Source of the DNA: Gammaproteobacteria bacterium
Lineage (GTDB): Bacteria; Pseudomonadota; Gammaproteobacteria; Pseudomonadales; Pseudohongiellaceae
Direction: 5' to 3'
Length of the DNA: 16,990 nt
NCBI GenBank assembly: GCA_016762995.1
Contig: JAESUT010000011.1
Span: 1,597 to 18,586 of the forward strand
In this document: in pieces, positions 3,492 through 7,381 of the stretch
Position numbering within the stretch: the first letter of the stretch is position 1
Layout: the number at the start of each line of letters is the position of its first letter
The notes under the pieces: generated by a model
Seen by the model: only the letters and a program-made list of their open reading frames with translations
Databases searched by the model: none
What the model was told of the DNA's origin: nothing
Translations under genes and position numbers: made by a program

Positions 3492-3522
3492 ATTTGGTCA
3501 GACCAAATTGGTCCGACCAAAT
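3492..3522. promoter_or_regulatory. Double palindromic operator for the FadR-type regulator
   Basis: Two palindromes TTGGTC-n-GACCAA lie at 3494-3506 (centre A) and 3508-3520 (centre C), with one base between them and centres 14 bases apart. The first extends to a 17-base perfect palindrome (3492-3508). The TGGTCnGACCA core matches the known operator style of FadR-subfamily GntR regulators. The site overlaps the place expected for the -35 element of a minus-strand promoter with a weak -10 TAGATT at 3485-3480. That fits autorepression. Confidence 0.85.
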
Positions 3523-4002: not shown

Positions 4003-6000
4003 ATGGAACCGATAAAAAAGTATTTGATCGATAACTTCGAAGGGGTGTTCGTCCTCGTCATTTTAGTATTCGTGAGCGCTATCGTGTGGTTTGTGGAGTC
4101 GAAGCTGTCTTTCCTGAATTTCTTCTATCTGCCGGTCTTGTTGAGCTCCTACTACTTGGGTATCCGCTCAGGTGTGTTAGGCGCATTTTTATGCTTCCTG
4201 ATTATCGGCATATTCGCCGGCATTTACCCAGATCGCTTCACTGCCCCCATGGACAATTTTGGCCTTGCGGCTTCAGTACTAACTTGGGCTGGTTTCTTAA
4301 TCCTAACCGCCGTCATCGTAGGTTTTACCCACCGCGAGCTACAAGACAAGATTACCGAGGCGCTGCGTTCGAAAGCCGAAGCGAGTGGTAATGCTGAACT
4401 GCTTGAACAGACTATGACCACCATTCGAGAATTCGAATCCGAACTAGACTATAAGGTGGAAGAAAGAACCCGCGTACTCGAAGAGAAGACAAAATCCATT
4501 AGGGCACATAAAGAAAAGGTTGAAGAAACACTTTATTCAACCATGGATCCAGCTGTTGTTAAGCTGATGATCGAGGGTCGCATCCGCACTGAGAATCGCC
4601 GCATTAGCGTGATGTTCTCCGACCTTAAGGGCTTCACCAAATACTCTGAAGAGCACTCGGCAGAGGTTGTGATTACCGAGTTAAATAAATATCTAGGAGA
4701 CATGGAAACCATCTTGCTCAACTACAACGCCCATATCGACAAATATATGGGTGATGGCATCATGTCCGAATTCGGCGCACCCATTCGCTATGAGAAGCAC
4801 TCTCTTCTCGCCGTGGCCTGTGCTTGGAAGATGCAGGAGAAAATGCAGCAGGCCAAACACCCTTTCGAGCTAAGAGTGGGCATAGCGACTGGTGTCGCCA
4901 CTACCGGCATCATCGGTGCGAAGCGTCAGTCATTTACAGCATTCGGCGACACTGTGAACCTAGCCTCACGCATTGAGGGCATGTGCGAACCAGGCCATGT
5001 CACAGTCGATGAAGCAACATTTAATGAATGCAAAGATGTATTCGATTTCAAGCCTGTCTCTGGCCTTGCGTCCTATACACAATCGGGCAACCCCGCGCTA
5101 GTTGATGAAATTACAGCCCTGATCAAAGCGGTAGACGCCAACGACAAAAACGTCTCAATGCGCGTCGAGCTAGCTAGCCTACTAAAAGAAGCGAACGATC
5201 CAGAGCAGGCGCATCTGCACTTAAAACTCGCCATGGGGCTCGCGCCCGATAACAAAGACGTAAAAGTTGCCTATGCAGAGAACTCTGTAATTATGGAACA
5301 ACAGCGGGACCTTACAGTTCGTGGTCGCCGCAGCACTGTCCACCTCTACGAAATTGTCGCATTCAAGAACCCTCTTGATAGGGCAAAACAGCTTCCTTCT
5401 CACCTACTAACAGATTTACAAGAGAAACTGGACAAGCTCGTTACCTATCCGGAAGATTTCATCTTACCGGTTGAATGTATTGATGGCTCCGTTGGCTTCG
5501 CTAGACTCACGGGTATCACAGCATTCCTGATAGCAGATCGAATGAACCTTGTCGACCAAGAGAAGCACGACATCCTCGAAGCCGGCTATTTGGCTGAAAT
5601 AGGCAAGACCATCGTGCCGGAAAACATATTGAACCGTAATGGCGGCCTAACCGAAGACGACTTCACTCATATTCATATGCACCCACGAGAGGGTGTGCGT
5701 AAGCTACGCAATGCCGGCTACGAAAATGAAAAAATGCTAGAACTCATTGAGTGCCATCACGAGAACTATGATGGCTCTGGCTATCCCGCAGGTATTCAAG
5801 GCGAAAATATACCAATCGGCGCTCGAATTCTGGCAGTAGCCGAGGCCTATATCAGCCTAACCTCAAACCGACCTTACCGCGACCCATGGGATGGTCGGGC
5901 AGCACTGACTGAAATCACCAAGTATATCCGCACAGGAAAATTCGACCCCATGATAGTAAACACATTATCCGAGATCGTTGGCGAGCTCGACAAAAAATAG
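4003..6000 (+). CDS. Membrane-anchored class III adenylate cyclase fused to a degenerate HD-GYP domain
   Basis: Predicted to make cAMP from ATP at the inner membrane. The 665 residues run in this order: about four membrane helices (residues 14-108); a charged coiled coil (about 110-180); a class III cyclase domain (about 198-330); a helical TPR-like stretch (about 380-435); and an HD-GYP-like domain (about 500-650). Cyclase residues are all present with class IIIb spacing: metal aspartates D207 (FSDLKGFT) and D251 (DKYMGDG), adenine-selecting K247 and T312, and N319 and R323 (GDTVNLASR). The Lys/Thr pair favours ATP over GTP. In the HD-GYP part, HHEN (585-588), GYP (593-595), H560 and RPYR remain. 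However, the HD pair is A531-E532 and the later metal aspartate of the VAD motif is E614, so c-di-GMP hydrolysis is unlikely. The ATG follows a weak AGAAG. It is the first gene of an operon with the rhodanese lipoprotein 31 bases downstream. Confidence 0.93.
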   Translation: MEPIKKYLIDNFEGVFVLVILVFVSAIVWFVESKLSFLNFFYLPVLLSSYYLGIRSGVLGAFLCFLIIGIFAGIYPDRFTAPMDNFGLAASVLTWAGFLILTAVIVGFTHRELQDKITEALRSKAEASGNAELLEQTMTTIREFESELDYKVEERTRVLEEKTKSIRAHKEKVEETLYSTMDPAVVKLMIEGRIRTENRRISVMFSDLKGFTKYSEEHSAEVVITELNKYLGDMETILLNYNAHIDKYMGDGIMSEFGAPIRYEKHSLLAVACAWKMQEKMQQAKHPFELRVGIATGVATTGIIGAKRQSFTAFGDTVNLASRIEGMCEPGHVTVDEATFNECKDVFDFKPVSGLASYTQSGNPALVDEITALIKAVDANDKNVSMRVELASLLKEANDPEQAHLHLKLAMGLAPDNKDVKVAYAENSVIMEQQRDLTVRGRRSTVHLYEIVAFKNPLDRAKQLPSHLLTDLQEKLDKLVTYPEDFILPVECIDGSVGFARLTGITAFLIADRMNLVDQEKHDILEAGYLAEIGKTIVPENILNRNGGLTEDDFTHIHMHPREGVRKLRNAGYENEKMLELIECHHENYDGSGYPAGIQGENIPIGARILAVAEAYISLTSNRPYRDPWDGRAALTEITKYIRTGKFDPMIVNTLSEIVGELDKK

Positions 6001-6622: not shown

Positions 6623-7381
6623 ATGACCCTTTCCAAGAAACTGCTTATCAATTTACTTGCCGGCTGCACGCTGGTATTGGCGGGAGGTATCGCTAATGCA
6701 GCCGATGCCGATATTGCGGCCGCATTGTCCCATACCGATCGCCTCAGCGGCGATGCAGAGGCAGACGATAAACGCATGCCGGCCCAGGTCCTCGCATTCG
6801 CAGGGCTTGAGACTGGAATGGATGTTCTTGAGCTTGAAGCCGGCGGCGGTTACTACACAGAAATCCTAAGTCGCTCCGTAGGCGCAAGTGGCAGTGTCAT
6901 CTTGCAACACGCGCCGGGCCTAATGGGATTCGTTGGTGATGGCATCGATCTGCGCACTGCGAACAACCGACTTCCGAATGTTACAGTAAGCATTACTCAG
7001 TTCGATGATCTGGACGCTGCCGACAATTCAATCGACATGGTGACCTGGATTCAGGGGCCACATGAACTTGGCTTCGCACCGGATGGAAATAGCCTCGGTG
7101 ATGCAGCCGGCGCCTTTCGTGAAATCGCTAGAGTATTGAAGCCAGGTGGCGTATTCGTTGCATCCGATCATCAAGCCCCTGACGGCACAGGACTCGAAGC
7201 TGGCGGCACGTTACACCGTATTGAGCAGAGCTGGGTTACTGAAATGGCTGAAGCGGCAGGACTTAGCATTGCCGCGACCTCAGATCTATTAAAGAACTCA
7301 GACGACCCTCTAACTGATGGTGTCTTCGCACCCGCTATTCGTGGCAAGACCAGTCAGTTCTTAGTTTTATACAGAAAGTAA
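6623..7381 (+). CDS. Exported class I SAM-methyltransferase-like protein (predicted methyltransferase, COG4798 type)
   Basis: The 252-residue product has a signal peptide (about 1-26, ending IANA before ADAD). A Rossmann-type methyltransferase fold follows: motif I VLELEAGGGYYTE (68-80), a strand with the acidic DDLDA region, and an IARVLKPGGVFVASDH segment typical of the motif after the fifth helix. AGGAG lies 6 bases before the ATG. LAGC at 12-15 could be read as a lipobox, but the hydrophobic stretch continues past it to a better type I cleavage site. The family is known from bacterial genomes, usually with signal peptides, and its substrate is not known to me. Export is puzzling because S-adenosylmethionine is made in the cytoplasm. 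The gene stands alone between a terminator and a convergent transporter operon. Confidence 0.85.
   Translation: MTLSKKLLINLLAGCTLVLAGGIANAADADIAAALSHTDRLSGDAEADDKRMPAQVLAFAGLETGMDVLELEAGGGYYTEILSRSVGASGSVILQHAPGLMGFVGDGIDLRTANNRLPNVTVSITQFDDLDAADNSIDMVTWIQGPHELGFAPDGNSLGDAAGAFREIARVLKPGGVFVASDHQAPDGTGLEAGGTLHRIEQSWVTEMAEAAGLSIAATSDLLKNSDDPLTDGVFAPAIRGKTSQFLVLYRK

Follow-up and report, generated by a model that had tools for sequence, protein, structure and literature searches.

What does an HD-GYP domain do once the residues that hold its metal ions are gone, and why would it be attached to an adenylate cyclase? The question is raised by a gene in a 16,990-nucleotide stretch of a gammaproteobacterial genome of the Pseudohongiellaceae (contig JAESUT010000011.1, positions 1,597 to 18,586; hereafter, the window). 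At window positions 4003 to 6000 on the forward strand, an open reading frame with an ATG start, whose initial methionine is the same in every row of an alignment of 21 rows, encodes a 665-residue protein with a predicted membrane part, an adenylate cyclase, and an HD-GYP-like domain. A first-pass annotation proposed that this last domain had turned from an enzyme into a sensor that binds cyclic di-GMP (c-di-GMP) or another nucleotide and tunes cyclic AMP (cAMP) synthesis. We answer, with moderate confidence, that c-di-GMP gates the cyclase; that the domain binds this ligand, and that binding alters cAMP synthesis, are the parts that we infer.

The protein divides into five parts. Residues 1 to 110 (positions 4003 to 4332) hold predicted membrane helices and resemble DUF4118 (PF13493, residues 17 to 119) below the Pfam cut-off (20.8 bits versus 28.4); the AlphaFold2 model has helices at residues 12 to 30, 34 to 51, and 54 to 74, the first of which we read as predicted membrane spans, and then a single helix at 85 to 180. 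From this model and from rates of nonsynonymous substitution (dN), we delimit a long signaling helix running into the cyclase at residues 111 to 190 (4333 to 4572). The class III (IIIb-type) cyclase domain follows at residues 197 to 351 (4591 to 5055; Pfam Guanylate_cyc, residues 199 to 344, E = 4.8e-26, above cut-off), its fold being modeled at about the same residues, and the HD-GYP-derived domain occupies residues 484 to 660 (5452 to 5982; HD_5, PF13487, residues 506 to 650, E = 6.8e-31, above cut-off), with its fold modeled at 484 to 659. The TPR-like segment that had been noted between the two domains lies at residues 364 to 440 (5092 to 5322) and appears in the model as four helices (364 to 435); Pfam TPR models at about 368 to 443 fall under the cut-off in the window protein, TPR is called by Pfam in many relatives, and TPR_1 exceeds the cut-off in the relative at locus L026. 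The full-length model has a mean predicted local distance difference test score (pLDDT) of 85.6 and a predicted template modeling score (pTM) of 0.65, at which the placement of domains is unreliable, and the C-terminal fragment modeled alone (residues 435 to 665) reaches 94.5 and 0.90, respectively.

The cyclase has the key residues credited to it at the outset: in an alignment to Pseudomonas aeruginosa CyaB and relatives, Asp207, Lys247, Asp251, Thr312, Asn319, and Arg323 are all retained. We take Asp207 and Asp251 to be the metal-binding aspartates, Lys247 and Thr312 the adenine pair, and Asn319 and Arg323 the transition-state pair, and the class IIIb label is likewise our assumption. In both sequence (E = 3.4e-27) and fold, no cyclase matches better than the catalytic domain of CyaB (PDB 3R5G), whose 198-residue chain covers residues 192 to 349 of the window protein only and holds no HD-GYP part. 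Across 319 aligned rows of the protein family, the six positions read DKDTNR in 230, DRDTNR in 52, and DKDSNR in 8, and, to judge from its residues, the window protein probably synthesizes cAMP.

The HD-GYP-derived domain presents Ala531-Glu532, His585-His586, Gly593-Tyr594-Pro595, Glu614, and Arg623-Pro-Tyr-Arg626. The annotation had numbered the Ala-Glu pair that replaces His-Asp (codons at 5593 to 5598) exactly, along with the retained GYP (593 to 595) and RPYR (623 to 626), but it overlooked Phe499 (codon at 5497 to 5499), which replaces the first metal-binding histidine, so that the loss is larger than was told. Histidine aligns at this position in V-cGAP3, DvhD, and HD-intact relatives. 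The HD-GYP c-di-GMP phosphodiesterase PmGH binds its metals through E185, H189, H221, D222, H250, H276, H277, and D305; alanine in place of any of these other than E185 or D305 leaves essentially no activity, and D305A only lowers it (available text of PMC4159591). By our mapping, Phe499 would correspond to H189 (the printed PmGH alignment begins past that residue), and the equivalents of H189, H221, and D222 in the phosphodiesterases PmGH and PA4781 (PDB 4MCW and 4R8Z) are lost in the window protein; Lys535, His560, His585, and His586 are retained, with Glu614 at the D305 position. F499, A531, E532, and E614 thus depart from the H, HD, H, HH, D pattern by which HD-GYP enzymes hold two or three metal ions, and because the site is missing we do not class the protein as a c-di-GMP phosphodiesterase. 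Glu614, cited earlier as a lost metal aspartate, does stand at that position but is not diagnostic: 16 of 44 HD-intact relatives share the glutamate and D305A leaves PmGH partly active, so by itself it is no mark of inactivity.

These substitutions are not peculiar to the window gene. Among 121 rows (the window protein and the best 120 of 1154 matches), position 499 is Phe in all 121 and the HD pair is absent from all; position 531 is A in 70, G in 33, S in 15, C in 2, and a gap in 1, and position 532 is E in 82, Q in 37, D in 1, and a gap in 1, a restriction that goes beyond chance. The HH pair reported as kept is present in the window protein, but its first histidine varies among the rows, with H in 81, S in 33, A in 5, and a gap in 2. 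The wider family was gathered from three protein searches (best 120 matches each) and a genome-collection scan (best 80 of 581 confirmed loci, of which L019 to L041 cover most of the protein); most loci match from residue 1 to 11 and thus include the N-terminal helices, L037 and L040 matching from residues 108 and 161. Grouped by us according to metal-site residues, the 319 rows comprise 44 with HD, 131 with AD (126 of them HADHSHD), 118 with the F499 pattern (window included), 7 with QD, 6 with CD, 1 with QN, and 5 others, the class table leaving out 7 gapped rows and the state tables being drawn without L020, L039, and L041 (no full frame from the match start) or L044 and L055 (other spacing). 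As to the domain order and the Ala-Glu substitution, for which the annotation had proposed a search, a cyclase followed by the TPR-like part and then HD-GYP recurs in metagenome-assembled genomes titled Acidobacteria/Terriglobia, Nitrospirae, Deltaproteobacteria/Syntrophorhabdaceae, and Proteobacteria. HD is missing across a multiphylum family, and we reject the unique decay of one gene as an explanation.

To place these states on a tree, we removed gapped and short (≤480 residues) rows, thinned the rest at 70% identity, and left out the trait columns, which gave 62 representatives. A branch of 41 rows (Shimodaira-Hasegawa-like approximate likelihood ratio test, 96), from Acidobacteriota, Nitrospirota, Thermodesulfobacteriota, and Pseudomonadota, has the HD histidine in none; the opposite branch of 20 rows, named mostly Elusimicrobiota, has HD in 15 and CD, DD, or HH in 5. 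P0171, which retains HD, sits just outside the 41-row branch and was excluded from clade comparisons. The root was not inferred, and we prefer loss of HD over gain because HD is the canonical state. The HD-intact cyclase/HD-GYP proteins (part of P0121 to P0165, and L040), which bear Elusimicrobia names wherever a name is given, have drifting nucleotide contacts; they are possibly bifunctional enzymes, whose substrate may not be c-di-GMP.

In PmGH, guanine base 1 is bound by R314 and K317 and base 2 by the main chain of K235 (available text of PMC4159591). Our alignment would place these at Arg623, Arg626, and Arg545 of the window protein, respectively. The 263 HD-less rows (no gapped row, HD-intact row, or HD-clade representative among them) keep Arg545 in 260, Arg623 in 262, Tyr625 in 251, and Arg626 in 258, versus 13, 35, 26, and 21 of the 44 HD-intact rows, and RPYR occurs in 34/41 rows of the HD-less clade versus 4/20 of the HD clade. 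By our reading, 6 of 21 canonical HD-GYP controls (taken from the 53 rows P0183 to P0235 after a motif-pattern screen) have exact RPYR. By these counts, the nucleotide contacts drifted in the branch that kept the metal site and were retained in the branch that lost it.

Selection was assessed with 14 relatives, of which seven had unsaturated synonymous divergence (dS) throughout (L114, L100, L110, L021, L118, L120, and L019, two pairs among them being the same gene fetched twice). For these seven, dN/dS is 0.021 to 0.106 in the HD-GYP part, 0.028 to 0.139 in the cyclase, and 0.049 to 0.220 in the TPR-like part; among the five parts, dN is highest in the TPR-like link and, for 12 of 14 pairs, lowest in the signaling helix. 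The HD-GYP part is under purifying selection as strong as that on the cyclase and, with ratios as low, is not decaying.

Structure prediction, which the annotation had suggested as a check, returned an HD-GYP fold whose closest solved counterpart is DvhD of Desulfovibrio vulgaris (PDB 9RBZ and 9RC0), which a 2026 paper describes as an experimentally tested receptor that binds c-di-GMP without metal (PMC13090378). DvhD is likewise a degenerate HD-GYP protein, with SQ for HD, and is the closest HD-GYP sequence in the PDB when residues 435 to 665 or the whole protein serve as query. Of the 12 canonical- and bridging-site residues of DvhD named in that paper, six are identical in the window protein, namely, R650, Y652, and R653 (Arg623, Tyr625, and Arg626, within the RPYR codons at 5869 to 5880) and Y621, L577, and P567 (Tyr594, Leu549, and Pro539), and M646 is conservatively replaced by Leu619.

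Both messengers are plausible in the window's organism, since its genome (a 3.05-Mb draft, 92% complete) has matches to GGDEF (5), EAL (5, one under the cut-off), HD_5 (4), class III cyclase (5), and cNMP-binding (6) domains. Of the 137 genomes in its taxonomic family, 24 carry the window gene, all from the window's genus (one of eight) and with one match each. An order-wide sample of 293 genomes yields it in 2, the window's included (E ≤ 1e-60, up to four candidates scored per genome). In a comparison of 44 of the 137 genomes (all 24 carriers and 20 listed non-carriers), GGDEF domains occur in 24/24 carriers versus 10/20 non-carriers, and within genomes of 2.6 to 4.0 Mb, in 18/18 versus 8/11 (medians, 5 and 1).

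The architecture, cyclase residues, missing metal site, family-wide conservation, contact residues, and fold are established here, and by analogy with DvhD we read them as follows. The protein would be a membrane-anchored, presumably dimeric class IIIb-type cyclase whose C-terminal domain would no longer cut c-di-GMP but would serve as a metal-free binding site for it or for a closely related cyclic dinucleotide. With ligand bound, the two HD-GYP domains would form a pair or change their angle; this movement would travel along the TPR-like link and the helices that lie around the cyclase, and the cyclase dimer would shift between a less active and a more active state, such that cAMP output would be set by the c-di-GMP level alongside whatever the membrane part, a possible second input, senses.

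Several observations weigh against this reading. Five DvhD site residues (E668, K582, Y523, K520, and R569) are not kept, which makes the identity of the ligand less certain; the proposed turn from enzyme to sensor agrees with the absent metal site, purifying selection, the main contacts, and the DvhD fold but not with these five positions. With residues 485 to 665 as query, the active enzymes 4R8Z, 4MCW, and 5Z7C (63.1, 62.4, and 62.0 bits) slightly outrank DvhD (60.8). A quick tree of 190 columns sets the 62 family rows on one side (support, 96) and groups DvhD, on a long branch (1.13), with 16 canonical rows opposite them; we therefore reject descent from DvhD-type receptors and transfer the function of DvhD by analogy, catalysis apparently having been lost independently in the two. 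The contrast between HD-less and HD-intact rows is one of two clades, not of independent samples; the HD clade is gapped in the loop at 544 to 547, where the alignment is less sure; the GYP tyrosine is looser in the HD-less clade (35/41 versus 19/19 lettered rows); and the RPYR positions rank just 15th to 35th of 167 for tightening, too far from the extreme for a sharp signature. Because cNMP-binding domains split identically (24/24 versus 10/20), the GGDEF association may just track signaling-rich genomes and is weakened as specific evidence. Finally, 15 of the 118 F499-group rows have altered cyclase residues (100 read DKDTNR and 3 have a gap at 207). Three proteins (P0104, P0109, and P0118) lack the TPR-like segment and keep the HD-GYP-like domain with a changed cyclase (Ser or Gly replaces Asp207, Asp replaces Asn319 in two of them, and P0118 has His for Arg323); by their residues, they are pseudo-cyclases joined to pseudo-HD-GYP domains. 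A heterodimer of complementary paralogues, suggested by relatives without Asp207 or Asn319, is not supported, a single match per genome being found in 24/24 carriers (E ≤ 1e-100, up to eight candidates scored per genome).

The domain might instead be a protein-interaction or dimerization module, holding the cyclase dimer or docking a GGDEF protein or other partner, with the pocket a structural relic. Precedents lie in the available text of two papers, where biofilm and virulence traits are affected by the YN-GYP protein PA2572 even though no activity of it could be detected (PMC3411652) and the GYP motif of RpfG is required for GGDEF binding and not for phosphodiesterase activity (PMC4159591), and Gly572, Tyr573, and Gly606, outside the known contacts, are among the most tightened positions in the HD-less clade. 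We nevertheless consider such a module unlikely, as conservation covers Arg545, Arg623, Tyr625, and Arg626, which are c-di-GMP contacts by position in PmGH and DvhD. The domain might also be a sensor for another nucleotide (3'3'-cyclic GMP-AMP [3'3'-cGAMP], pGpG, cAMP as product feedback, or a guanosine nucleotide) than c-di-GMP; DvhD itself binds 3'3'-cGAMP (effective dissociation constant, 501 nM) and, poorly, pGpG (PMC13090378). Its second-base contact E668 falls near Arg643 of the window protein, with a gap nearby, and is not constant within the HD-less clade (E in 21, G in 8, and D in 4 of 41 rows), but with GGDEF domains in all 24 carriers and the guanine-contacting arginine positions kept, we judge a different ligand distinctly improbable.

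That c-di-GMP is still hydrolyzed through an unusual residual site can appeal to Lys535, His560, His586, and Glu614, which remain; we give it very little credence, since the equivalents of H189, H221, and D222, each essential to PmGH in the available text, are gone and DvhD, with SQ and MN, hydrolyzed no c-di-GMP with any added ion. Passive decay of the HD-GYP part, as baggage on a membrane-regulated cyclase, is scarcely credible: the missing ligands differ between lineages and the open frame of one carrier locus (L122) stops before GYP, yet dN/dS of 0.021 to 0.106 is as low as in the cyclase and the contact residues are near invariant across phyla.

Two further proteins of the window's genome bear on the same domains. 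At L015 (positions 1396 to 2364), a cNMP-binding domain (PF00027, E = 2e-15) is joined to a GGDEF domain (PF00990, E = 7.9e-44) whose motif reads GGEEF; this candidate cAMP-sensing diguanylate cyclase would link the messengers in the direction opposite to that of the window gene. Read by eye, the two domains share one open frame in at least 9 of the 24 carriers, lie side by side in G357, and share a frame in none of the 20 non-carriers among the matches listed. At L004 (705 to 2174), a second HD-less HD-GYP protein has ADIG for HDxG, GFP for GYP, and no RPYR, and by these motifs is a contrasting case of fuller decay, unlike the window gene.

In the neighborhood, a divergent GntR gene lies upstream in all six close loci (L019 to L023 and L041), with an HlyD-type gene beyond it in five (the sixth contig is short), and a rhodanese gene lies downstream in two of the five with sufficient sequence. 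Directly upstream of the GntR gene, window positions 3495 to 3519 hold two TGGTCNGACCA inverted repeats 14 bases apart, which recur in all six close loci (two copies in five, one in L023) and are absent from both distant loci checked (L024 and L028); they are probably the GntR operator. Positions 6623 to 7381 encode a methyltransferase-like domain that, by our reading, has an apparent signal peptide ahead.

Returning to the c-di-GMP-gated cyclase, we advance tentatively, as quite possible, the broader view that it belongs to a multiphylum family of such cyclases, which arose when the phosphodiesterase in a cyclase/phosphodiesterase fusion was stripped of its metal ligands and its pocket stayed on as a sensor. 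In a sister lineage (mostly Elusimicrobiota named), the metal ligands would have been retained and the pocket would have drifted, and the L015 protein would close a loop in reverse. If so, the window protein would be the first example seen of such a family, joining two bacterial messenger systems in one molecule, and, together with DvhD, would suggest that HD-GYP domains became receptors more than once.

Degenerate HD-GYP domains as such are already known from PA2572, NosR, and DvhD. Among the open-licence PMC papers listed, we found none naming a cyclase/HD-GYP fusion or a c-di-GMP-binding adenylate cyclase and none on Pseudohongiella with an adenylate cyclase; the available text of PMC1183210, PMC11139211, PMC12943098, PMC9239204, and PMC7063779 names no such fusion or cyclase. 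In NCBIfam, the NosR family (NF053512; residues 509 to 663, E = 6.3e-32) scores highest against the window protein, which, at 111.1 bits versus a curated cut-off of 400, is no member of it. As far as the available text of PMC12570481 and PMC3411652 describes them, NosR and the YN-GYP protein PA2572 lack HD, like the window domain, but are REC linked and without a cyclase. DvhD has a dCache-PAS-HD-GYP architecture, also without a cyclase, and is the proposed controller of a periplasmic protease, whereas the window protein is a cyclase fusion. The cNMP-EAL protein Bd1971 likewise joins cAMP and c-di-GMP in one polypeptide but in the opposite direction, sensing cAMP and cutting c-di-GMP (available text of PMC6717892); if a cyclase were to respond to c-di-GMP directly, one polypeptide would contain the reverse link.
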